Shown piece after piece: positions 3,728 through 61,310 of a stretch of DNA of 64,000 nucleotides. The stretch is from Monodelphis domestica. Taxonomy: Eukaryota; Chordata; Mammalia; Didelphimorphia; Didelphidae. The stretch spans positions 231,407,372 to 231,471,371 of the forward strand of contig NC_077233.1 in assembly GCF_027887165.1 (NCBI RefSeq). Reading direction: 5' to 3'. Numbering within the stretch: position 1 is the first letter of the stretch; each line of letters opens with the position of its first letter. Under the pieces are notes generated by a model that saw nothing but the letters and a program-made list of their open reading frames with translations, had not been told where the DNA came from and ran no database searches. The position numbers were made by a program, and so were the translations under genes.

Positions 3728-4023
3728 TGTGACAGAGGCTGGCACTAGAGAAAAAGTGCCAGGCTGGAGTGTGTGAAATTGATCACCTCGATGGGAGAGG
3801 GTCCCTAGGAGTGGAATCCGGAGGAGGAGAGGACTCTGGTTGGGAGAGCAGTGAGGGCTCTCGGTCTTGAGAAGCCAAAGAGAGAAGTTGGGAAAAAGAC
3901 TTTCTCCTGAGGCTTACCCATTTTTCCTGATGGTGACTGGAAATCTTTTCCCCAAACACTTTCCAATTGAAGGGACTTCTGAAGAGAAACCTGAGCAGAC
4001 TTTACCTCAGCTCCTGTTTTGCC
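3728..4023 (+). repeat. Left inverted arm of the fossil
   Basis: Matches the reverse complement of 5538-5833. Shared landmarks include TTGATCACCTC, GAGAAGCCAAAGAGAGAAGT, GACTTTCTCCTGAG and GAAGGGACTTCTGAAGAGAA. Confidence 0.85.
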
Positions 4024-5309
4024 ATAATGTACTGTAACCAAACATGGTGGGATGCATTTCCTGGGTGCTCCTTTTGTGACCTTTCCTGAAGTCTCAGACT
4101 GCCCTTCCTCAGTTTCTTCATCATCCTCATCCTCAGAACTTAGCTTGCTTATCATATTTCTAAGATGAGGTTTAAATCGGAGTGGATCATTTTCACTGAG
4201 ATTGCCTGTCACTGCTGTTCTCACCAATTTGTCTATTTGATGCTTGGGTTTTTGATCCAAAGGATGCAGTTTCTCTAAAAGCGTTTGAATCTCCATCAGT
4301 CTCAGGATTGTAGGATGTTCCTAAAGTGAACTTCCTGAAGCTTTGTCCAGTATGAGGTAGCTCAGGTCCATTGAATAACAACTGGTCTTTTACTTCCAAG
4401 AAGCTAAGGCCTTTGTCTGTAGGGTAGGCTCCAGCCTGTACCTTCTTTGTCAGAGCTTGAATTTGGGCTGTTACAGCCACCACCTGCTCCTGGTAGTTGT
4501 TCAAAAGAGACAGTACAAGTGGCACATCTGACTCTAATACCTCTGGTGCTGCCACCTTGAGAGCATCACTTCCCTTCATCCCCTCTTTAGTAATTCCATC
4601 CCCATTCAATACACTATTATTAACTAGCTCTGTATCACTTTGGACCACTACTGTCTGTGAGATAACAGCTTGCTCAGAGGAAAGGTTTGTTTTTGTGTTA
4701 ATTTCAGTTTGAGAACTGCTTGGTGATATTTCACTATCAAAGACTCTTCTGTTCCCATTCCCTTAGATTGCTTTGCAGTCTCTGGTTCAGGGAATAGACA
4801 GTCATTGGAATTTTCATATTGATCTGTGCTAAACCCATCCCTGGGACTGGTATCTTTGAGTGTTTTAGGATTTTGTGGGTAAAAGTCTTTGGTTTTAGGT
4901 TTTACGTTAGTTCTCCCCTCGTTTTCCTTTCTTTCCCCTCTTAGATTTATAAATGTATCAGCTCCAACGGCTTTTGTAACAATGTCTCATTTGGCTATCT
5001 TGTCAGAATGATCTGGATACTTAAGTTAATAACTGTATTAAAAAAGATAAAAAGAGGGAAATTTGTACCCCAAGGGAAGTTTGGACTTTTGGTATGGAGA
5101 AGGGGAAAGAGAGGAGAACCCACTTCTCAAAGTGGGGTTCAGGGGAGACAGCAGATGTAATGAGTTGGCTCAGAGAGAGGAGAGGGGGTTTGAAGATTTT
5201 TCCCTCTTCTGCCTTCCCTCCTTGGCTAAAGTCACTCTCCCAGATTCACTCTTGTCCCTCTTGTCCCCCCTCCACTACTCTAGACCAAAGGGTCTCCCCT
5301 TATCTGTTT

Positions 5310-8484: not shown

Positions 8485-9158
8485 TTTTTTTTTATTTGAA
8501 ATTTTTTATTTAATTAATTAATTTAGAAAAATTTTTCATGATCACACGATTCATGTTCTTTCCTTTCCCTGCTCCCAACCCTTCCCATAGCCAACAAGCA
8601 ATTCCACTGGGTTTTACATGTGTCATTGATCAAGACCTATTTCCATATTATTCATATTTTCAGTAGAGTGATTGCTTAGAGTCTATATCTCCAATTATAT
8701 CCCCATCGAACCATGTGATCAAGCAGTTGTTTTTCTTCTGTCTTTCTGCTCTAATAGTTTTTCCTCTGAATATGGATAGTGTTCTTTCTCATAAGTCCCT
8801 CAGAATTGTCCTGGATTATTGCATTGTTGCTAATAGAGAAGTCCATTACTTTCAATTGTGCCACAGTGTATCGGTCTCTATGTATAAGGTTCTCCTGCTT
8901 CTGCTCCTTTCACTCTGCAGAAATTCCTGGAGGTTGTTCTAGTTCCCATGGAATTCCTCCAATTCATTATTGCTTTGAGCACAATAGTATTCCATCATCA
9001 ACAGATACCACAATTTGTTCAGTCATTTCCCAATTGAAGGGCATCCCCTTACTTTCCTTTTTTTTTGCCACCACAAAGAGTGTGGCTATAAATATTTTTG
9101 TACACAAGTTTTCCCCTATTATCTCATTAGGGTATAAACCCAGCAGCAAGATATGAAC
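8485..9158 (-). mobile_element. 5'-truncated L1, 3' end only
   Basis: Minus-strand L1: A-tail, 3' UTR (TTCATGATCACACGATTCAT, GGTTTTACATGTGTCATTGA) and the last ~120 codons of ORF2 (antisense of the [24 protein letters not shown] region). It ends at AGGGTATAAACCCAGCAG. Flanked by CTTGCTCATTCTT (8472-8484) and CTTGATCATTCTT (9159-9171), a 13-base duplication with one mismatch; the right copy is followed by AAAAG, giving a TTTT/AAGAATG nick site on the minus strand, matching the L1 endonuclease preference. Confidence 0.94.
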
Positions 9159-11751: not shown

Positions 11752-14700
11752 CATTAGAATTGGGCAAATAGAAGCTAACAATAATAAAACAAAATCAAAA
11801 GAAGAAAAAATAGAAGAAAATATGAAATATTTTATTGAAAAAAACAATTGACATGGAAAATAGATCTAGGAGAGACAATTTGATAATGTTTGGACTACCT
11901 GAAAGTCATGATCAAAAGACAAAAAAGCCTGGACTTCATATTGCAAGAAATTATCCAAGAAAACTGCCCTGGTTTTCTTAAACAAGAAAGTAAAAAAGAC
12001 ATTGAATGAATCCACAGATCACCTCCTACAACAAATCTTCAAATGACAACTCCCAGGAATGGTATAGGCAAGTTCAAAAGTTCTTAGGTCAAGGAGAAAG
12101 TACCTCAAGAAGCAAGAAAGAAACAATTCAGATATCATGGAGTCTCCATCAAGATTACAAAGAATAAGGCAATTTCCACATTGAAGGGCCACAAGGCTTG
12201 GAATATGATATTCCAGAATGCAAGAGAACTGGGTTTACAACAAGAATCACCTACCAATCATAACTGACTATATTCTTTCAGGAGAAAGTATGGTTATTTA
12301 ATAAAAATAGAATATTTCCAAGCATTCCTGAAGAAAACTCCAGATTTAAACAGAAAATTGGATGTCTAAATAAAAAATTCAAAAGAAGCATAAAAAGTTA
12401 AATAAGAAAAAGAAAAAAATTTAAGGGCTTCAATAAGGTCATACTGTTTATATTCCTATATGGAAAGGAAATATCTGCAACTCTTAAAATTTGTTATCGT
12501 TATCATAGTAGTTAAAAGAAGTATACATAGACAGAGGGTGTGATAGTAAGCTGTTAAGGATGATATGCAAAAAAAAAAAAACCAAGGTGTGAAAAAGATG
12601 ATTACACTAAGAGAAATGAGAAAGAAAATAAAATGGGGCATATTATATCTCATAAAAAGGCACGGGGTGGGTGGCAACTATAACTGTGGAGGGTAAGATG
12701 AGAGTCGTCTCTCATGGTTAATACTTAAACTTTACTCTCATTAGAATTAGCTCAGAGAGGGAAAAACAGCTAGATTCATTGGGGGTATACTATGTTACCT
12801 TATCCTTCAGAAAAGTAGAAGGAGAATAAAGAAAGGAGTAGTGGGGAGGGGGGTAGAAGATAAGGGAGAGAAAAATTTGGGATGATTAAAAGATTCTATA
12901 GAGAAGTAAGAGGGGAATAAGAAGTGTGGTGGTGGGAAGGAGAGTAATTTAAGGGAAGGGGTAAGGGGGAGTGATTACAAGCAAAACACTGGTGTGGAGG
13001 GAAAGAATGAAAGGAGAAAGGGCAGGATAAAAAGAGGAAAACAAGATGGAAGGGAATACACAGATGGTAATCATAACTATGAATATAAATGGGATGAACT
13101 CATCTATAAAATGGAAGCAGATAGAAAAGTGGATTAAAAACTAGAATCCTATCATATGTTGTTTACAAGAAAAACATTTAAGGCAGGTAGATACACCCAG
13201 AGTAAAGGTGAGGGGCTGGTGCAGAATCTATTGGGATTCAACTGATACTCTACGCCCCCCCAAAAAAGTAGGAGTAGCAATCAAAATATCAGAGCTAAAA
13301 CAAAAATAGATCTGATTAGAAGAAATAAGGAAGTTAATTACATCTTGATAAAAGGTAGCATAGACAATGAAGTAATATCAGTACTTAACATATTTGTACC
13401 AATTGGCATATCATCCACATTTTTAAAGGAGAAACTAAAGGAATTTAAGGAGGAAACAGACAATAAAACTTTACTAGCAGAGGATCTTAACTTCTCCCAT
13501 CAGAACTAGATAAATCTAACAAAAAATAAACAAGAGTAAAAAAAGTGAATTAAGTTTTAGAAAAGCTAGATTTAATAGATATTTGGAGAAAAATGAGTAG
13601 GGATAAAAAAGGAATATACCTTCTTTTCAGCAACTCATAGTACATTTACAAAAATTAACCATGTACTAGGGCATAAAAACTTCATAACCAAATTCAGAAA
13701 AGTAGAAATAATAAATGCAACACATTTTCAGATCATAAGGCAATAAAATTATAATTAATAAGGGTACATGAAAAAGGTAAATTAAAATTAATTGGCAACT
13801 AAAGAGAATGTCATTCTCTTTAATGAATGACAATGGTGTGACAACATATCAAAATTTATGAGATACAGCCAAAGTAATACTCAGGGGAAAATTTATATCC
13901 CTAAGTGCTTAAATAAATAAAATAGAGAAAAAGGAGATCAATGAATTAAGTATGCAAGAACAACAACAAAAAAAAAAAACTAGAAAAAAGACAAATTTAA
14001 AATCCCAAATTAAAGACTAAATTGGAAATCTTAAAAATCAAAGGAGAAATTAATAAAATTGAAAATAAAAGAACTATTGAAATAATAAATAAGACTAGGA
14101 TCTGGTTCTATGGGGAAAAAAACAAATAAAACGTAGAGATTGGTTAATTTGTTTAAAAAAGGAAAGAAAAGAATCTTAAATTAGCAGTATCAAAAATGAA
14201 AAGGGTGATTTCACCTCTGATGAAGAAAAAATTAAAACGATCATTAGGAGTTATTTTGCCTAATTACATGATAATAAATCTGATAATATAGATGAAATGG
14301 ATTAATATTTTACAAAAATATAAATTACCTAAATTAATGAAAGAGTAAATAGAATGCTTAAATAATACCATGTCAGAAAAAGAAATTGAATAAGCTATCA
14401 ATGAACTCCCCAAGAAAAAAAATCCCCATGGCCAGATGGATTCACAAGTGAATTCTATCAAACATTTAAGGAACAATTAATCCCAATATATTCAAAATAT
14501 TTGGCAAAATAAACAAAGATGAAGTCCAAATTATTGTTTTGACACAAATATGGTGCTGATACCTAAGCCAGGAAGACCAAAAACAGAGAAAGAAAATTAC
14601 AGGCAATTTCTCTAATGAACATTGATGCAAAAATCTTAACTATTTGGTATTTATACCAGGAATGCAAGGCTGGTTTAATATTAGGAAAACTATCAGCATA

Positions 14701-15240
14701 ATTGAGCATATCAATAATCAAATTAACAGAAACCACATGATTATCACAATAAATAGAGAAAAATCCTTTGTCAAGATCCAAAATCCATTACTATTAAAAA
14801 CACTAGAAACCATAGGAATTAAAGGATCTTTCCTTAAAATAATAAGTATTTATTTAAAACCATCAGCAAGTATCATTTGCAATGGAGATAAGTTAAAGGC
14901 TTTCTGATTAAAATCTGGAGCAAAGCAAGGATGATAATTATCTCCACTATTATATAATATTGTATTAGAAATGCTAGCTTTAGAGAGGAAAAATGAATTG
15001 AAGGAATTAAAGAAGGCCATAAAGAAACTAAACTATAATTTTGTGGATAATATAATGTTATACTTAGAGAATCCTAGAAAATCAACTAAAAAACTAGTTG
15101 AAATAAATAATAACTTTAACAAAGTTGCAGGCTACAAAACAAACCCACATAAATCATCATTGCCATATATTTCCAACAAAACTCAGCAGCAAGAGTTAGA
15201 AAAAGAAACTCTATTTAAAATTACTCTGGACAAAATTAGA

Positions 15241-16315
15241 TTGGGAAAAAATCTTTATAACAAAAGCCTCTGACAGAGGTCTTGTTACTCAAATTTATAA
15301 GGAGCTAAATCAATTGTACAAAAAAATCAAGCCATTCCCCAGTTGATAAATGGGCAAGGGCCATGAATAGTCCGTTTTCTGAAAAAGAAATCAAAACTAT
15401 CAATAAGTACATGAAAAAAGTGTTCTAAATCTCTTATAATTAGAGAAATGCAAATCAAAACAACTCTGAGGTACCACCTCACACCCAGCAGGTTGGCTAA
15501 TATGACAGCAAAGGAAAGTAATAAATGTTGGAGGGGGTGTGGCAAAATTGGGACACTAATACATTGCTGGTTGAGTTGTGAATTGATCCAACTATTCTGG
15601 AAGGCAATTTCCAACTATGCCTAAAGGGATTTAAAAGACTGCCTTCCATTTGATCTAGTCATGCCACTGATGAGTTTATACCCCAAAGAGATAATAAGGA
15701 AAAAGACGTAACAAAATATTTATAGCTGTGCTTTTGGAGTGGCAAAAAACTGGAAAATGAGGGGAATGTCCATCGCAAATTGTGGTATCTGTTGGTGATG
15801 GATTACTATTGTGGTAAAAGGAATAATGAAATGGAGGAATTCCATTTGAACTGGAAGGACCTCCTGGAAGTGATGTAGAGTGAAAAGAGCAGAACCAGGA
15901 GAACATTGTACACAGAGCCTGACACACTGTGGCACAATCAAATGTAATGGACTACTCTACTAGCAGCAATGAAATGATCCAGGACAATTCAGAGGGTCTT
16001 GGGAGAAAGAATGCTATCCATATCCAGAGAAAGAACTGTGGGAGCAGAAACACAGAAGAAAAACATTTGCTTGATCACATGGTTTTATGGGGATATGATT
16101 GGGGATATAGACTCTAAAAGATCACCCTAATGCAAATATGAATAATATGGAAATGAGTCTTGATTAGTGATACAAGTAAAACCCAGTGGAAATGCTTGAT
16201 GGCTATGGGAGGGGGAGGGACAAGAGGAGGGAAAGAAAATGAATCATGTAACAATAGAAAAATATTCTAAATAGATCAATTAAATAAATCAATTAAACAT
16301 AAACAAATAAAATCA
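15241..16315 (+). mobile_element. 5'-truncated L1 nested in L1 copy B
   Basis: Copy B ORF2 reads up to the KITLDKI segment (15240) and resumes at about 16316 with TAGACAAATGCAGGGATTAT, matching the later [11 protein letters not shown] segment of the same protein. Between them is a separate L1 3' part. It opens at the NWEKIFI..SDRGLVTQIYKELNQLY region, runs through the CCHC region (GGAGGGGGTGTGGCAAAATT) and ORF2 end, and has its own 3' UTR with an A/AATA-rich tail. Thus two ORF2 C-termini appear in tandem, at about 15.3-15.95 and 17.0-17.75 kb. Confidence 0.85.
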
Positions 16316-18762
16316 TTCTAGACAAATGCAGGGATTATATGAACACAATTAGAAAACACTTTCCACACAAATAAAGTTAGATCTAAAGAACTGAAAAAAT
16401 TAATTGCTCATGGGTAACCCAAACTAATATTAAAAAATGGTAATATTTACTTATTCAGTGCCATACCAAACTACCAAAAAACTATTTTACAGAACTAGAA
16501 AAAAAACAATTAAATTCATCTAGAAGAACAAAAGACCAAGAATTTCAAGGGAACTAATAAAAAAAGTGAAGGATGGTGGCGTAGAGGTACCAGTATCTTT
16601 AACTGTACAAAAAGCAGTAATCATCAAAGCAATCTGGTATTGTCTAAGAAATAGAAGGGTGTATCAATGGAATAGATTATGAGCAAATGACCTCAATAAT
16701 CTAGTGTTTGATAAACCCAAAGATACCAGCTTTTGAGATGACCTCACTATTTGATAAAAACTGCTGAGAAAATTGGAAAATAGTATGAAAAAATTAGATT
16801 TAAATATCTAACACCCTATACCAAGATAAATTCAAAATAGATATGTGATTTAAACATAAAGAGTGATATTATAAATAAATTAGGGGAACATAGACTAGTT
16901 TACCTGTCATTTCTATGGAGAAAGGAAGAAATGACCAAATGAGATAGAGACATTACAAGATGTAAAAATAATAATTTTGATTATATTAAATTAAAAGGGG
17001 ATTGTACAAACAAAACCAATGTAACTAAGATTAGAAGGGAAACATCAAACTTGGGGACATTTTTATATAAAATTTCTCTGATAATGGTCTCATTTCTCAA
17101 AAATATAAAGAAATAAGTCAAATTTATAAGAATCCAAGTCATCCCCCAATTGATAAATGGTCAAAGAATATGAATAGGCAGTCTTCAAAGGAAGAAATCA
17201 AAGTTATCAATAATCATATGAAAATAGGTTCTAAATCACGTGATTAAAGAAATCCACATTAAAACAACTCTGAGATACCATCTTACACTTAGCAGATTAG
17301 CCAGTATGACAGTAAAGGAAAATGTAAATGTTGGAGGGGATGTGGCAAAATTGGGACATTAATACACTGCTGGTGGAGTTGTGAACTGATCCAACCATTC
17401 TGGAGGGCAATTTGGAATTATGCCCAAAGGGCTATAAAAGAATGCCTACCCTTTGATCCAGCCATAGCACTACTAGGTCTGTATCCCAAAGAGATTTAAA
17501 AAATGGGAAAGGACAAATATATTTATAGCTACTCTCTCATAGTGGCAAAGAATCAGGAACCAAAGGAATGTCCCTCATTTGATGTCTGTATAAATTGTGA
17601 TATATGACAGTAGTGGAATGCTATTGTGCTATAAGGAATGATGAACAGGATGATTTCAGAAAGAGCTAGAAAGACCCACATGAACTAATGGGAAGTGAAA
17701 TAAGCAGAACCAGAAAAACAGTGTGCACAGTAATATACTAACCACAATACAATCACCCAGAACAGTTCTGAGGGACTTATGAAAAGAATGCTATCCATCT
17801 CCAGAGAAAGAAGTGTTGGCATAAGAATGCAGAAGGAAGCATATGAGTTATCACTTTTTATGTGGGTATATGCTTTAGAGTTTTGGTTTTATAAGATTAT
17901 TCACTTATAATAATGAATAATATTGAAATATTTTTGCATGTATACATGTATAACCCAGAATGAATTGCTTGCCAGCTCTGGGAGGGTGTAGGGATGAAGG
18001 AGGGAGACAGCTTGGATTATATAACTTCAGAAAACTCATGTGGACATTTGTTATTAAAACTTTTTAAATTAACAAAAAGGATGAGAATGAGATGTCCTAA
18101 GAGAAGGGGGAAGGGAGAGATAGGATGGGGAAATTTTCCTCACATGAAAGAGATATATAAAGGAAGTGCTTTTATACTGGGTGGAAAAATGGTAGTGGGG
18201 TTTGTAGGCAATGCTTGAATCTCACTCTCATTAGAATTGGTGCAAAGATGGAGGAATATGTATACACACTTAAGCAGATATAGAAATCTATCTTACCCAA
18301 CTGGGAAATAGGAGGGAAAGAGGATAAGAGACATGAACTTCAGGGAGAGGGTGATGATAAAAGGTAGGGTATTTTAAGGGAGACATTGATCAGAAGGAAT
18401 ACAAACTTTAGAGGAGTGATAGGACAGAGATTTGGATAAACAGACAAAAATAGGATGGGGGAAAATACACAGATAGTAATGAGTTGTGAAAGAGAATGGG
18501 AAGAACACACTCATAAAATGGAAGAGGATAGCAGAATGGATTAGAAACCAGAATCCAACAATATATTGTTTATAAAAGAAACACTTGAAGTAGAAAGACA
18601 CACAGAATTAAAATAGGGAACTAGAGCATAATAAATCATTTTGTATTAATGCATTAAAAAGGCAAGGGTAGCACTTGTGATCTCAGACAAAGCAAAAGCA
18701 AAAATAAACATAATTAAAGAGATAATCAGGGAAATTATTTTTTTAAAAAAAATACCAGATGA

Positions 18763-18950
18763 AGGACAGTTAGGTGACTCAGTAGACCAGGTCTAGAGAC
18801 AGAAGGTCTTGCATTCAAATTTAGCCTCAGACACTTTCTAGCTATGTGGCTTTGAGCAAGTCACTTAATCCCAGTTGCCTAGCCCTTACCACTCTTCTAC
18901 ATTGGAACCAGTGCTAGTATTGATTCTAAGAAGGAATGTAAGTATTTTTT
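18763..18950 (+). mobile_element. Marsupial SINE in L1 copy C
   Basis: AGGACAGTTAGGTGACTCAG..CATTCAAATTTAGCCTCAGA..TTGATTCTAAGAAGGAATGT. GGTAAGGG-tail family, diverged; it lost part of the head-proximal region. Confidence 0.85.
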
Positions 18951-19844
18951 AAACTAAATAAAAGATACTACAGACAATGAAGTAATATCAAAAAAAGTTT
19001 TAATGCAAGTTCCTCTGATAAAAGTCTAATTTCTCAAATATACTGGAAATTGAATCAAATTCATAAAAATAAGAGCCATTCTCCAATTGATAAGTGGTCA
19101 AAAGGTGTGGACAGACAGATTTCAGAAGACAAAATCAAAGTTATTTATATTCATATGAAAAAATGCCCCAAATCACTGTTAATTAAAAATGCTAATTAGA
19201 ACAACTGAAGTACTACCTCACACCTATTGGAAATGTAAAATGATAGAGTGGATAAAAGAAAATCGGTACACTTACAAACTTTTGATGGAGTTGTGAGCTG
19301 GTTCAATCATTCTGGAGGACAATTTGGTACTACATCCAAAGGATAATAAAACTGTTCATACCCTTTGACCCATCAAAACAACTACTTGTCTCCCAAAGAG
19401 ATCAAAGGGACAGGAAAAGGACTTATGTGTATAAAAATATTTATAGCAGTTCTTTTTTATGGTAAACAATTGGAAATTGAGGGAATGCCCATCAACTGAG
19501 GAATGAATGAACAAGTTATGGCATATGATTGCAATGGAGAACGATTGTACTATAAGAAATGACGAGGAGGGTATTTTTAGAAGAAAACATCAACAACTTC
19601 AGGGCAAATCCTATATGAACTGTTGTAAAAAAGTGAAGTGAGAAGAACTAGATTATTGTGCATAGTAATAGCACTCTTATAATAATGTAATAATGACCAA
19701 ATGTGAAAGCCTTGACTACTCTGATCAATATAATGATCCAAGAGAATTCCAAAGCAATGATGATAGAAAAAATGCTATTTTCTTCCACAAAAAAATGATG
19801 AACTCTGAGTACAAATTGAAGTATAATTTTCTTTCTTTCTTTCT

Positions 19845-53359: not shown

Positions 53360-53482
53360 CTATGTCTCTGTCTGTCTCTGTGTCTGTCTATCTCTCCTCT
53401 GCTCTGTTTCTCCTTTCTCTTTGTCTGCCTCTGTTTTTCTTCTTTCTCTGTCTCTCCTCTTTGTCTCTTTCTGTCTTTTTCT
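53360..53482. repeat. CT/CTGT-rich simple repeat, left of the young L1
   Basis: TCTGTCTC/CTCTTTGTC-type repeats; continuous with 59889-60075 before the L1 inserted. Confidence 0.9.
53465..53482. repeat. Target-site duplication, left copy
   Basis: CTCTTTCTGTCTTTTTCT here matches 59889-59906 exactly over 18 bases. It directly abuts the T-run that is the tail of the minus-strand L1. The surrounding CT-rich repeat makes part of such a match likely by chance, but the interrupted pattern (CTG and T5 in the same places) is specific. Confidence 0.88.
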
Positions 53483-53828
53483 TTTTTTTTTAAATATATT
53501 TTATTTGATCATTTCCAAGCATTATTCGTTAAAGACATAGATCATTTTCTTTTCCTCCCCCCCACCCCCCATAGCCGACGCGTAAGTCCACTGGGCATTA
53601 GATGTTTTCTTGATTTGAACCCATTGCTTTGTTGATAGTATTTGCATTAGAGTGTTCATTTAGAGTCTCTCCTCTGTCATGTCCCCTCAACCTCTGTATT
53701 CAGGCAGTTGCTTTTTCTCGGTGTTTCCACTCCCATAGTTTATCCTTTGCTTATGAATGGTGTTTTTTTTCTCCTGGATCCCTGAAAGTTGTTCAGGGAC
53801 ATTACACCGCCACTAATGGAGAAGTCCA
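53483..53828 (-). other. L1 3' UTR with G-rich tract and A-rich tail
   Basis: About 346 bp follow the ORF2 stop. On the sense strand it contains GGGGGGTGGGGGGGAGGA (53554-53571), a candidate G-quadruplex resembling the polypurine tract of the human L1 3' UTR. Equivalent G-rich stretches occur in the older L1 copies here (16206-16232, 26506-26530). The tail is an A-run interrupted once (T-run on the plus strand). Confidence 0.85.
53500..53505 (-). terminator. L1 polyadenylation signal AATAAA
   Basis: The sense strand reads AATAAA about 17 bases upstream of the A-tail, the usual L1 arrangement. Confidence 0.75.
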
Positions 53829-56354
53829 TTACGTTCGATGATACCACAGTGTATTAGTCTCTGTGTACAATGTTCTCCTGGTTCTGCTCCTCTCGCTCTG
53901 CATCACTTCCTGGAGGTTGTTCCAGTCTCCATGGAACTTCTCCACTTTATTATTCCTTTGAGCACAATAGTATTCCATCACCAACATATACCACAGTTTG
54001 TTCAGCCATTCCCCAATTGATGGGCATCCCCTCGTTTTCCAGTTTTGGGCCACCACAAAGAGCGCAGCTATGAATATTTTTGTACAAGTCTTTGTGTCCA
54101 TTATCTCTTTGGGGTACAGACCCAGCAGTGCTATGGCTGGGTCAAAGGGTAGATATTCTTTTGTCGCCCTTTGGGCATAGTTCCAAATTGCCCTCCAGAA
54201 TGGTTGGATCAGTTCACAACTCCACCAGCAATGAATTAATGTCCCTACTTTGCCACATCCCCTCCAGCATTCATTACTTTCCTTTGCTGTTATGTTAGCC
54301 AATCTGCTAGGTGTGAGGTGATACCTCAGAGTTGTTTTGATTTGCATCTCTCTGATTATAAGAGATGTAGAACACTTCTTCATGTGCTTGTTAATAGTTT
54401 TGATTTCTTTATCTGAGAACTGCCTATCCATTTCCCTTGCCCATTTATCAATTGGAGAATGGCTTGATTTTTTGTACAATTGATTTAGCTCATTATAAAT
54501 ATGAGTAATTAAACCTTTGTCAGAGGTTTCTATGAAGATTTTTTCCCAATTTGTTGTTTCCCTTCTGATTTTAGTTATATTGGTTTTGTTTGTACAAAAG
54601 CTTTTTAGTTTGATGTAGTCAAAATTATTTATTTTACATTTTGTGATTCTTTCTATATCTTGCTTGGTTTTAAAGCCTTTCCCCTCCCAAAGGTCTGACA
54701 TGTATACTATTCTGTGTTTACCCAATTTACTTATGGTTTCCTTCTTTATGTTTAAGTCACTCACCCATTTTGAATTTATCTTGGTGTAGGGTGTGAGGTG
54801 TTGATCTATTCCTAGTCTCTCCCACACTGTCTTCCAATTTTCCCAGCAGTTTTTATCGAATAGTGGATTTTTGTCCCAAAAGCTGGGATCTTTGGGTTTA
54901 TCGTATACTGTCTTGCTGAGGTCGTTTTCCCCCAGTCTATTCCACTGATCTTCCTTTCTGTTTCTTAGCCAGTACCAAATTGTTTTGATGACTGCTGCTT
55001 TGTAATATAGTTTGAGGTCTGGGACTGCAAGGCCCCCATCATATGTGTTTTTTTTCATTATTTCCCTGGATATCCTTGATCTTTTGTTCTTCCAAATGAA
55101 CTTTGTTATGGTTTTTTCTAAATCAGTGAAGAAGTATTTTGGTAGTTCAATGGGTATGGCACTAAATAGATAAATAAGTTTGGGTAGGATGGTCATTTTT
55201 ATTATATTGGCTCGTCCTATCCATGAGCAGTTAATGTTTTTCCAATTGTTCAAGTCTAGTTTTAGTTGTGTGGCGAGTGTTTTGTAGTTGTGTTCATATA
55301 GTTCCTGTGTTTGTCTTGGGAGATAGATTCCTAGGTATTTTATTTTGTCTAAGGTGATTTTGAATGGGATTTCTCTTTCTAGTTCTTGCTGCTGAGCTGT
55401 GTTGGAGATATATAGAAAAGCTGATGATTTATGTGGGTTTATTTTGTATCCTGCAACTTTGCTAAAGTTGTTGATTATTTCAATTAGCTTTTTGGTTGAA
55501 TCTCTAGGATTCTTTAAGTAGACCATCATGTCATCCGCAAAGAGTGATAACTTGGTCTCCTCCTTGCCTATTCTGATGCCTTCAATTTCTTTATCTTCTC
55601 TAATTGCTACTGCTAGTGTTTCTAGTACAATGTCAAATAGTAGAGGTGATAATGGGCATCCTTGTTTCACTCCTGATCTTATTGGGAATGCATCTAGTTT
55701 ATCCCCATTGCAGATGATATTAGCTGTTGGTTTTAGATATATACTGTTTATTATTTTTAGGAATGACCCTTCTATTCCTATGCTTTCTAGTGTTTTTAAT
55801 AGGAATGGGTGTTGTATTTTATCAAAGGCTTTTTCTGCATCTATTGAGATAATCATGTGGTTCTTGCTAGTTTGCTTGTTGATGTGGTCAATTATGTGGA
55901 TGGTTTTCCTAATGTTGAACCAGCCCTGCATCCCTGGTATGAATCCTACTTGATCATGGTGAATGATCCTTCTGATCACTTGCTGGAGTCTTTTTGCTAG
56001 TATCCTATTTAAAATTTTTGCATCTATATTCATTAGGGAGATTGGTCTATAGTTTTCTTTCTCTGTTTTTGACCTGCCTGGTTTTGGAATCAGTACCATG
56101 TTTGTGTCGTAAAAGGAGTTTGGTAGAACTCCCTCTTTGCTTATTATGTCAAATAGTTTGTATAGTATTGGGGTTAACTGTTCTCTGAATGTTTGATAGA
56201 ATTCACAGGTGAATCCATCAGGCCCTGGGGATTTTTTCTTAGGAAGTTCTTTGATGGCTTGATGGATTTCAATTTCTGATATGGGATTATTTAAGAATTC
56301 TATTTCCTCTTCTGTTAGTCTAGGCAGTTTGTATTTTTGTATATATTCATTCAT
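53829..56354 (-). CDS. L1 ORF2 C-terminal block: reverse transcriptase and CCHC
   Basis: 841 codons from an internal Met; the frame is in fact open upstream to about 56,680. It holds the reverse transcriptase that copies L1 and SINE RNA at the nicked target. Motifs in order: [81 protein letters not shown], and the catalytic FADD at 55530-55541. The thumb has [16 protein letters not shown]. Near the end is the Cys-rich motif [18 protein letters not shown] (CX3CX7HX4C), as in L1 ORF2p. The whole ORF2 span, 57633-53829, would be about 1,268 residues, matching the roughly 1,275 of human ORF2p. No stop interrupts this block. Confidence 0.96.
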
Positions 56355-56649
56355 TTCTCCTAAATTGGTGTATTTATTGCCATATAATTGGGCAAAGTAA
56401 TTTCTAATGATTGCCTTAATTTCCTCCTCATTGGAGGTGCTGTCCCCCTTTTCATCTTTAATGCTGTGAATTTGCTTTTCTTCCTTCCTTTTTTTAATTA
56501 GATTGACCAGTACTTTGTCTATTTTGTTTGTTTTTTCAAAGTACCAGCTTCTTGTCTTATTTATTAAATCAATAGTTCTATCACTTTCGATTTTATTAAT
56601 TTCTCCCTTAATTTTTAGGATTTCTAATTTGGTTTTCTGCTGGGGGTTT

Positions 56650-57633
56650 TTAATTTGATCGCTCGAGTTTTTTCAATTGCATTTCCAATTGATTGATCTC
56701 TGCTCTCCCTTGTTTGTTAATATGAGCTTTCAGGGATATGAATTTGCCTCTGATTACCGCTTTGGCTGCATCCCAAAAGGTTTGAAAGGATGTTTCGCCA
56801 TTGTCATTTTCCTTGATGAAATTATTAATTGTTTCTATGATTTCTTCTTTAGCTAAACGGTTTTGGAGTATCATATTGTTTAATTTCCAATTGGTTTTAG
56901 ATTTGGTTTTCCATGTACCATTACTAATCTTTATTTTTATTGCCTTGTGATCTGAGAAGGCTGCATTCATTATTTCTGCTTTTTTGCATTTGTGTGCTAT
57001 GTTTCTGTGACCTAATGTATGGTCAATTTTTGTGAATGTGCCATGTGGTGCTGAGAAGAAGGTGTATTCCTTTTTATCCCTATTTATTTTTCTCCATATG
57101 TCTATTAATTCTAATTTTTCTAAGATTTCATTCACTTCTTTTACCTCTTTCTTATTTATTTTTTGATTTGATTTATCTAAATTTGATAATGGTTGGTTTA
57201 AGTCTCCCACTAGTATGGTTTTATTGTCTATTTCTTCCTTCAATTCTCCTAGTTTCTCCATTAGAAATTTGGGTGCTATATTATTTGGTGCATACATGTT
57301 GATTAATGATATTTCCTCATTGTCTAGAGTCCCTTTTAACAAAATATAATTACCTTCCCTATCCCTTTTGATCAGGTCTATTTTTGCATTGGCTTTATCA
57401 GATATCATGATTACCACTCCTGCCTTCTTTCTATCAGTTGAGGCCCAGAAGGTCTTACTCCATCCTTTAATTCTGACCTTGTGGGTGTCAACCCGCCTCA
57501 TGTGTGTTTCTTGAAGACAACATATGGTAGGGTTTTGGATTCTAATCCATTCTGCTATTCGTCTACGTTTTATGGGTGAGTTCATCCCATTCACGTTCAA
57601 AGTTATGATTGTCATTTGTGGACTCCCTGGCAT
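56650..57633 (-). CDS. L1 ORF2 N-terminal block: endonuclease
   Basis: The first 327 codons of ORF2 carry the apurinic/apyrimidinic-type endonuclease that nicks target DNA. Recognisable catalytic and binding residues are present: the Asn in TLNVNG (about residue 13), Glu in CLQETH (42), Asp and Asn in LVGDLN (about 143-147), Asp in KIDHTLGHR (about 205), and SDH (about 228-230). A second Met, in [10 protein letters not shown], could be the true start. The frame ends at 56650. The protein continues in the neighbouring frame, and the switch lies at or just before an A6 run (56668-56673 on the complementary strand), consistent with a one-base length change in a homopolymer. Confidence 0.95.
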
Positions 57634-58164
57634 TTTGATTGCCTTCCCTAATTCTAACCTTTTCTTCTTTGGCTCTACCTTTTAGTCCAGTGATTTACTT
57701 TGAATCAGTCCCCCTTGTCCCCTCCCTTGATGTTTCCCTTTTTAGTCCCTCCCTTTTTGTTCCCTCCCCCTCCCCCCTCTCTTTCCCTCCCTTTTTGTTC
57801 TCCCTCTCCCCCTCCCCCCCTTGGTTTTCCCTTCTCCTTACCCTTGTTGGGTAAGATAGAATTCAAGATCCCAATGGATCTGGATGTTTTTCCCTCTCAG
57901 AGTTGATTTCCCTGAGATTGAGGTTTAAGTAACACCCCCCCCCTCTCTTCCTCTCCTTCTTATAGGAGTTTTCTTCCCCTCCCCTTCCCCTGTGAATCTT
58001 TGTGTGAGAACCATTATTCTATTTGGTCTTTCTTTACCCCCTATTTATACATTACATTTTCCCCACATATTAGTATACATAGGTTGATATAAATGTAGTC
58101 CTTATAGAAGAGAGTTTGAGTAAAAGAAGATAACATTTTTCCCCTTTCCTTAATATTTACCTTT
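57634..58164 (-). other. L1 inter-ORF spacer, purine-rich, 531 bp
   Basis: The spacer between ORF1 and ORF2 is strongly purine-rich on the L1 sense strand. Runs of three to seven Gs sit opposite C-runs at about 57761-57820, with another near 57931-57940. A block reading CTCTGAGAGGGAAAAACA is shared almost unchanged with the spacer of the old L1 at 10.7-18.1 kb (about 12752-12770). So the spacer is an inherited part of the element and not a recent insertion. Possible roles are a G-quadruplex or an internal ribosome entry region for ORF2; neither is shown. Confidence 0.8.
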
Positions 58165-59088
58165 TCAGGTATTCCTTGCTCTTTGATTTTCGGTATCAAA
58201 CTTTCCACAGAGCTCTGGTCTTTTCTTTGCAAAAAGTTGGAAGTCTTCTATTTTGTTGAATGCCCATACTTTCCCTTGGAAGTATATAGTCAGTTTTGCT
58301 GGGTAGCTGATTCTTGGTTGGAGACCCAGCTCTCTTGCCTTTCTGAAGATCATGTTCCATGCCTTACGATCATTCAGCGTAGAACTTGCAAGGTCTTGTG
58401 TGACCCTGATTGGCATTCCTTTATATCTAAATTGTCTTTTTCTGGCTTCCTGTAGGATTTTTTCTTTTGTTTGATAGCTTTGGAATTTGGCAATTACATT
58501 CCTGGGAGTTGTCTTTTGGGGGTTTAGTGTAGAAGGTGTTCTGTGAGCTCTGTCAGTGGCTGTATTGCCCCCTTGTTCTAGAATCTCTGGGCAATTTTCT
58601 TTGATTATATCTTGTATCACCATGTCCAGTTTGGTGTTTATTTCTGGCTTTTCTGGGAGTCCAATTATTCTTAAATTTTCTCTTCTCCCCCTGTTTTCCA
58701 GATCTATCACCTTGTCGGTGAGATATTTTATGTTCTCTTCTAATTTCTTGGTGTTTTGGCTTTGCTTTATTAGTTCTTGCTTTAAAGCCTGGTTTTCTTT
58801 TACAGTTTGGTCAAACTGGTTTTGTAGATGCGTGAATTTCTTTTGCATCATTTCCCACTTTTCCTCCCAGAGGGCTTCCATCTTTTTGGTCCTTTCTGAT
58901 TCAAATTCTTCATGGGTTTGTGGAGAGTTTCTATTTCCTTTGGAAGATTTTGGAGAATTTTCTTGTATATCTTCTTCTATCTGCTCTGTATTTTGTATTT
59001 TGGCTCCATAGAATGTGTCCAGAGTCGCCCCTTTCTTCTTATTTTTCTTGGTATTTTGGGGCTTCTGTGCTTCTGTGGAGTTTGTCAT
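58165..59088 (-). CDS. L1 ORF1 protein, 307 residues, intact
   Basis: ORF1p is the trimeric RNA-binding chaperone that coats L1 RNA in cytoplasmic particles and is needed for retrotransposition. The sequence has a basic, Ser/Asn-rich N-terminus (about residues 1-75) and a charged heptad-like coiled coil (about 75-130, EKWEMMQKKFTHLQNQFDQT onward). The RRM begins at the family signature ENRGRRENLRIIGLPE (about 130-145), followed by the C-terminal domain containing ARELGLQPRISYPAKLTI. The length is close to that of placental ORF1p (about 340). The chosen ATG has G at -3 and overlaps the end of an upstream ORF. There is no internal stop. A 531-bp spacer separates it from ORF2, far longer than the 63 bp in human L1. 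Confidence 0.95.
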   Translation of the reverse strand: MTNSTEAQKPQNTKKNKKKGATLDTFYGAKIQNTEQIEEDIQENSPKSSKGNRNSPQTHEEFESERTKKMEALWEEKWEMMQKKFTHLQNQFDQTVKENQALKQELIKQSQNTKKLEENIKYLTDKVIDLENRGRRENLRIIGLPEKPEINTKLDMVIQDIIKENCPEILEQGGNTATDRAHRTPSTLNPQKTTPRNVIAKFQSYQTKEKILQEARKRQFRYKGMPIRVTQDLASSTLNDRKAWNMIFRKARELGLQPRISYPAKLTIYFQGKVWAFNKIEDFQLFAKKRPELCGKFDTENQRARNT

Positions 59089-59348
59089 CTCTGAACGTGG
59101 AGGATTGGCTTTTCTTGTCTTTGTCTGGTGATCAGAGGCTTTAGTCCTGGGCAGATGTTGGTTCTATGAGCGTTCCCTGGGTTAAACTGAATATGCCTCA
59201 CTGGAACTGGAATGGAAGGGTCGGACCACGAGGCCACACTCTCCCCCTGGCTCGATTTCCGGAAGTTGCCTTCAGAATCCCTGGCCGTGAGGCTGTTTCG
59301 ACGGCCTGCGGGGGGATGGGCTGCCGCTTCCCCAAGCTCCGAGAGCAC
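59085..59348 (-). CDS. Upstream ORF overlapping the ORF1 start (87 codons)
   Basis: An open frame in the L1 5' UTR runs into the start of ORF1. Its TGA (59087-59085) overlaps the ORF1 ATG (59088-59086) as ATGA. That layout is used for termination-reinitiation in some viral and retrotransposon RNAs. The translation is Arg/Pro/Ser-rich with no family I recognise. In GC-rich DNA an 87-codon frame can arise by chance, so coding is not shown; the exact overlap is the notable point. Another 89-codon frame (59467-59198) overlaps its upstream part. Confidence 0.3.
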   Translation of the reverse strand: MLSELGEAAAHPPAGRRNSLTARDSEGNFRKSSQGESVASWSDPSIPVPVRHIQFNPGNAHRTNICPGLKPLITRQRQEKPILHVQR

Positions 59349-59431
59349 AGACTTTCACTGAGACTTGGATAGCAGGATCCAGCCCGTGAGGCTGTCTTGC
59401 CCGCCCTGAGGGTTGCTGTTGTTTTGACCAG

Positions 59432-59575
59432 CTCTCTGCAGCGGAGGCCCCAGGCAGTAACTTTCACCCGGACCTACCAGCTCTTTGCAGCGGAGGCCCC
59501 AGGCAGTAACTTTCACCCGGACCGACAGGCTCTCTGCAGCGGAAGCCCCAGGCAGTAACTTTCACCCGGACTGGG
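59432..59575 (-). repeat. Three 49-bp tandem repeats in L1 5' UTR
   Basis: Units begin at 59432, 59481 and 59530, each with the core CTCTNTGCAGCGGANGCCCC, and differ by only a few bases; the third is slightly short. Tandem monomers in the 5' UTR are known as promoter units in mouse L1. The 49-bp period is not a multiple of three, so these are not protein repeats. Confidence 0.85.
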
Positions 59576-59865
59576 ACTTGGGTAGAAGACCCTGAGGGTT
59601 GTTGTTCCTCAGACCCTGCTCTCTGAGCCCGGCGCGGCTGCCGCTTCCGGGAGCCTTGGACTCTGCGCTCCTACCCCTGAGGTCCGAGGGATCTCGGGTT
59701 CTGGCTTTTAAGGGGAGCCGTACCTTTTGAACCGGGTCCAGGTCCAGGAGGAGGGTTCCCAGGGTCTGTGCTGTTGATCGTTTTGAATTTCGGCGCCTTA
59801 GGAGCTTCTAGTTTGAGATCGGTCGGGAAGGGTTTTCCGGAGATCTGAACTTCAGCTTTCTCTAA

Positions 59866-59876
59866 GCCGCCATCTT
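59866..59876 (-). promoter_or_regulatory. YY1-type motif at the L1 5' end
   Basis: The sense strand reads AAGATGGCGGC, the classic YY1 consensus, about 13 bases from the L1 5' end. In human L1 a YY1 site (CAAGATGGCC) sits at almost the same place and helps fix the transcription start. The same arrangement here supports both the 5' boundary and a working promoter layout. Confidence 0.8.
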
Positions 59877-59888
59877 AACCGGAAGTCC

Positions 59889-59906
59889 CTCTTTCTGTCT
59901 TTTTCT
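59889..59906. repeat. Target-site duplication, right copy
   Basis: Exact 18-base copy of 53465-53482, starting directly after the 5' end of the L1, whose sense strand begins GGACTTCCGGTTAAGATGG. It fixes the 5' boundary and shows that the element is not 5'-truncated. Confidence 0.88.
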
Positions 59907-60765: not shown

Positions 60766-60929
60766 ATCATTCCTCGTCCATCTTTTCCTTATGTAATGAA
60801 ATTGATCAAAAGCAATAAAAGCCTGGAATACTCCTGTCCCTTCCCATTCAAATCAAGTCCATGCCTAAGATTCAATATCTTATTTCCTGTAGGAAGAGTC
60901 TTCCATGACCCTCAGAGCCTACAATAATC

Positions 60930-61310
60930 TCTCTGTCTCTGTGTTTCTCTCTGTGTCTCTCTCTGTGCCTCTGTCTCTCTCTTTCTTCCCTCTTTCTTTT
61001 TCTTTCTTTGTTTCTTTTTTCCTTCCTTCTTTCTTTCTTCTTTCTCTCTCTCTCTTCTCTCCTCTTTCTGTCTTTCTCCTTTTCTCCCCCTCTTTCTTCC
61101 ATTCTTTTCTCCCTCTCCCCTTCTCTCCTTTTTCTCTTCCCCTTTCTCCCTTTTCTGTTTTCTCTCCTTCCCCTTCTTTCCCTTTCTTTCCCCTCTCTTC
61201 ATTTTCTCTCCCCACACTCATTCATCTCTCTCCCTCTCTCTCTTTCTCCCCTTTTCTTCTCTCTCTCCCTCTCTTCTATCTCCCCACCCTCCATTGAATT
61301 TTTTTTTCCT
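60930..61310. repeat. Polypyrimidine region
   Basis: About 380 bp almost free of purines on the plus strand (TCTG, TTTC, CCTC units). Frames up to 138 codons are artefacts. Confidence 0.95.

Follow-up and report, generated by a model that had tools for sequence, protein, structure and literature searches.

Human LINE-1 (L1Hs; PDB 2ykp, 8uw3 and 8sxt) runs in the order 5' UTR, ORF1, ORF2, 3' UTR and poly(A), with a YY1-type site at its very start, an endonuclease, a FADD motif and a CX3CX7HX4C motif; a role for YY1 at the start of the element is described in part of the text of PMC11602158. In mouse L1, according to the excerpted sections of PMC3600994, the coiled-coil region of ORF1 is length-polymorphic (66/42 bp), and recombinant ORF1 sequences point to exchange between families. 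The spacer between the two ORFs spans 18–580 bp over 31 species with a median of 63 bp, and long spacers are reported from marsupials, Laurasiatheria and Afrotheria (PMC4072516, in part). The same excerpts give a 445-bp spacer with an inhibitory effect in megabat L1 (family 1A) and state that the American opossum was omitted from the alignment owing to non-homologous regions. Since long spacers have been published for marsupial L1s in that source, the trait is already known.

The locus described here lies in a window of 64,000 nucleotides (the whole stretch of DNA that was analysed) and is almost certainly a complete LINE-1 that inserted recently and belongs to a marsupial lineage still active now or until very recently; the host is most likely Monodelphis domestica. 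Its minus-strand anatomy, listed below, has the same order as L1Hs and the same YY1-type start, endonuclease, FADD and CX3CX7HX4C motifs but, unlike L1Hs, it has a 531-bp spacer and a 5' UTR with 49-bp units in tandem. Where ORF2 is intact in sibling copies of the opossum element it encodes 1,268 aa, compared with 1,275 aa in human.

53465–53482, no strand: target-site duplication (TSD), copy at the LINE-1 3' end, exact 18 bp
53483–59888, minus strand: full-length LINE-1 insertion, 6,406 bp
53483–53491, minus strand: poly(A) tail of 9 A, with one further A that also belongs to the TSD
53492–53828, minus strand: 3' UTR, including a polypurine tract rich in G; homology to older copies in the window
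53500–53505, minus strand: AATAAA polyadenylation signal, read directly
53829–56672, minus strand: second open frame of ORF2, with reverse transcriptase (RT) and C-terminal cysteine-rich region
54216–54269, minus strand: CX3CX7HX4C motif
55530–55541, minus strand: FADD motif of the RT
56650–56672, minus strand: stretch of the ORF2 frame change, a small gap private to the window copy (all 15 siblings have letters here)
56650–57633, minus strand: first ORF2 block, APE-like endonuclease, 327 aa
57634–58164, minus strand: 531-bp spacer between the ORFs, containing six upstream AUGs and a tract rich in purines
58165–59088, minus strand: ORF1, 307 aa, with coiled-coil region, RRM-like domain and C-terminal domain
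58378–59172, minus strand: block (end of the 5' UTR and most of ORF1) whose history differs from the rest among siblings
58781–58782, minus strand: site where long-form siblings have an extra 42 nt (14 codons) of ORF1
59089–59888, minus strand: 5' UTR, 800 bp, 58% GC, CpG observed/expected 0.58
59427–59573, minus strand: 5' UTR array of three 49-bp units in tandem, copy number variable among siblings
59866–59876, minus strand: YY1-type site AAGATGGCGGC, beginning at element base 13
59889–59906, no strand: TSD, copy at the LINE-1 5' end, exact 18 bp

Both proteins carry the features of the L1 clade. ORF1 is open over all 307 aa, as the original prediction held, and residues 88–293 match solved human ORF1p (E = 1.8e-32), with domain matches to PF02994 and PF17490; it contains a coiled coil (assigned by alignment to ORF1p, not by a prediction program), the L1 RRM-like domain and the C-terminal domain. 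In ORF2, residues 5–325 of the first block and 1–829 of the second match human ORF2p. Alignment to the solved human protein also bore out the claim that the recognizable residues are kept, including N, E, Y, D/N, T, D and SDH of the endonuclease, D of the RT and the CX3CX7HX4C motif, with the usual catalytic residues in place. An APE-type endonuclease, a FADD RT and a cysteine-rich C terminus are thus all present, with one frame break between endonuclease and RT. For the ORF2 blocks, searches of prokaryote and viral collections yielded no relatives that could be confirmed, which is expected of an element from a vertebrate.

The 5' end is complete, again as predicted: it opens with the YY1-type start, and its first 34 bases recur exactly at 2,087 places in its own genome and at 8,574 places with up to three mismatches (reversed controls, 0 in both cases). 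The CpG observed/expected ratio of the 5' UTR compares with 0.09 in window positions 1–53464. G-quadruplex motifs in the spacer showed no excess over shuffles (3 starts versus a mean of 2.52), and an Rfam search gave no matches.

The TSD, CTCTTTCTGTCTTTTTCT, occurs just twice in the whole window on either strand, and both copies abut the element ends, so the perfect 18-bp duplication of the original prediction is real; together with the poly(A) tail it provides both hallmarks of target-primed reverse transcription. It sits within a pyrimidine-rich microsatellite, where some chance matching is possible, and the longest word shared by dinucleotide-shuffled 150-bp flanks averaged 11.6 and reached at least 18 in 1 of 400 shuffles, counting words anywhere in the flanks and not only those abutting the element ends. 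Pyrimidine-rich microsatellites of considerable length occupy positions 1899–2070 and 60928–61285, and CTTC is repeated 43 times among them. Some points count against a recent L1 insertion: the L1 nick consensus is TTTT/AA, from which the site here (TTTTTC/TG or TTTTTCT/GT) differs, and the A tail is short at 10 nt, although A runs in the five closest siblings measure 10–21. TSDs of 11–18 bp were found at 13 of 15 full-length siblings, while the same script found none at the remaining two (L058 and L060). In the sequence of events suggested by these features, L1 RNA would have been transcribed from the internal YY1-type site acting as a promoter, then copied into the pyrimidine-rich microsatellite by target-primed reverse transcription, leaving the 18-bp duplication and poly(A) tail; one small gap breaking ORF2 would have been acquired after (or during) insertion.

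Siblings were taken as the first 20 places with an exact 5' end along contig C1, a sample that leans young, and 15 of the 20 span the whole element. The other five (L048, L057, L059, L061 and L062) have a perfect 5' end but lose similarity after about 1.2–2.4 kb, a pattern that internal deletion, inversion or subsequent insertion would produce. These five were excluded from the tree and the full-length counts. Directly after the 3' end of L056 lies a second L1 piece, 69.9% identical, which suggests that this sibling inserted into an older L1. Divergence of the window copy from the 15 full-length siblings ranged from 0.35% (L058) to 2.32% (L053), with five siblings (L044, L049, L054, L055 and L058) at 0.35–0.48%. 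Counting substitutions against subfamily copies, the check that had been proposed, yielded 22–31 differences to these five in about 6.3–6.4 kb. In the tree, the window copy falls in a six-row clade (SH-aLRT 99) on a terminal branch of 0.0014 (0.14%). Across 6,218 columns, singletons within that clade number 5 for the window copy and 9–15 for the other five rows. The three open frames, which total 4,743 coding positions when the short stretch shared by both ORF2 frames is counted twice, contain no inner stop; this places neutral divergence at or below about 1.2–1.5%, in agreement with the short terminal branch. Many copies with low mutual divergence mark a recently active subfamily, and the description of a nearly intact, recently inserted copy stands. 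At a neutral rate of 2–3e-9 per site per year, the insertion is probably under 1 Myr old, at roughly 0.3–0.7 million years, with the rate as the weak link. The original prediction had also pointed to the decay of the other L1s in the window; matching pieces are indeed only 65–83% identical to the element, but their decay does not date this copy. A cluster of old, overlapping L1 pieces, about 67–78% identical to the young element, extends over 11782–19560.

The alternative of an old L1 that has stayed intact through chance, or through selection acting on ORF1, would fit an ORF1 that is open while ORF2 is broken. It would also fit the greater divergence of the non-coding parts from the five closest siblings (about 0.2–1.8% by part) than of ORF2 (7–13 of 3,805 sites), as past or present constraint would give. 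Even those non-coding parts are less than 2% diverged, however, and with a whole-element distance of at most 0.48% to five of the 15 full-length siblings and so few singletons, great age is very improbable. The recent insertion is nevertheless damaged: its ORF2 carries a two-column gap, the only frame change between the two blocks, just as had been claimed, at a position where all 15 full-length siblings have letters. Both ORFs are open in six of these siblings (6 of the 20 fetched; L044, L045, L046, L047, L049 and L055), with an ORF1 of 307 or 321 aa and an ORF2 of 1,268 aa. A competent L1 has both ORFs intact and, because the small gap breaks ORF2, the window copy most likely cannot now move by itself, with ORF1 still open.

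If the frame change were a sequencing or assembly error, the copy would be fully intact, like those six siblings, and it is true that the gap is the sole coding defect seen, is private to the window copy and adjoins a six-base A run. We consider an error unlikely, given that homopolymer errors more typically alter one base than leave a two-column gap and that a broken ORF in 9 of the 15 siblings makes a real lesion ordinary. Programmed ribosomal frameshifting could also join the two ORF2 blocks, and the A run does precede the frame change, but a frameshift signal would be common to the siblings, all of which carry letters at the gap, and ORF2 is a single 1,268-aa frame in 7 of the 15, making this explanation barely conceivable. 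A real, private lesion in a recent insertion is the reading that we retain.

Two length forms of ORF1 circulate in the lineage: 17 of 30 loci carry a short one that encodes 307 aa, and 13 carry a long one whose coiled-coil region is extended by 42 nt. Genome-wide, junction words with up to two mismatches numbered 4,606 for the short form and 2,473 for the long form (reversed controls, 0). The 42-nt segment shows no evident origin by tandem duplication of adjacent sequence (at most 20 of 42 positions agreed over the 12 offsets tried), and an old copy in the window loses similarity at about this segment, where the ancestral ORF1 form would show. In ORF2, the long-form siblings L046 and L060 show 11 and 9 differences from the window copy over 3,805 sites, compared with 7–13 for its own clade. 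In the first part of ORF1, the counts against the window copy are 21 and 20 of 410 sites, yet only 1 and 2 of 452 sites separate these two siblings from the otherwise distant L056. Codon differences from the window copy in this part were 17 nonsynonymous and 4 synonymous for L046, versus 4 nonsynonymous and 5 synonymous for the short-form L063. A two-breakpoint scan over five triples, with 300 shuffles each, placed an odd block at element positions 717–1511 in the three triples where L046 or L060 was the child and at 667–1553 in the two where the child was the window copy or L058; the observed value was reached by 0 of 300 shuffles in each triple. In AU tests, one clade of young rows plus L046 and L060 was rejected for the ORF1 block (p = 0.013), and a short-form clade was not rejected for ORF2 (p = 0.097).

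Because L046 and L060 are near the window copy in ORF2, yet near L056 in ORF1, we take the ORF1 mosaic as apparent recombination between L1 lineages, direction aside, with which the AU tests agree in part only. It is possible, if on balance somewhat doubtful, that two forms of ORF1p, set apart by 14 residues of the coiled coil and by a cluster of amino-acid substitutions, have been swapped by recombination onto a near-identical young ORF2 backbone, with ORF1 serving as a replaceable cassette in a still-expanding lineage during an arms race with the host. The 42-nt coiled-coil length difference and the exchange of ORF1 are shared with mouse families as excerpted in PMC3600994, from which the opossum element differs in its marsupial host and in a 42-nt segment without evident tandem-duplicate origin.

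The long spacer is a family trait, measuring 527–534 bp across the 15 full-length siblings, and an old window copy that is ~70% identical in coding parts keeps a homologous spacer stretch at 12722–13044 (E = 1e-20). A long spacer is also found in megabat L1 but, whereas that element is extinct (PMC4072516, in part), the opossum long-spacer lineage is young and abundant. The 49-bp repeat of the 5' UTR was present in 0, 1, 2, 3 and 4 copies in 1, 18, 5, 5 and 1 of the 30 loci, respectively. Across these loci (L014–L043), three or four copies were seen at 6 of 17 short-ORF1 loci versus 0 of 13 long-ORF1 loci.

The surrounding sequence agrees with the predicted marsupial host. Using search patterns that we take to represent the CORE sequence and the RTE-type tail, we identified six SINEs in the window that combine both, with a spacing of 43–45 bases; they occupy six sites in 31202–52548 and are pairwise 66–76% identical. 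As excerpted in PMC3403934, SINEs of marsupials can have RTE tails, and the CORE-SINEs of placental mammals comprise MIR and MIR3 only, both long inactive. At about 3964–4552 on the minus strand lies a frame-broken copy of neuroguidin (NGDN) that matches residues 2–61 and 83–201 of the human protein (7mq8) in two frames, close together. It looks like a processed retrocopy, since the two matches adjoin without room for introns.

The element is of an ordinary kind, has thousands of close relatives and represents no new type of system. Its spacer, 49-bp repeat, and ORF1 polymorphism and exchange have published parallels in mouse and megabat, and the opossum details (the 42-nt ORF1 forms, their exchange and the repeats) were not found in the open-licence literature searched. 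The locus and its siblings provide direct evidence of a large, very young population of full-length L1s in a marsupial, and a natural comparison in which ORF1p occurs in a short and a long version alongside ORF2 backbones that hardly differ; their value is comparative.
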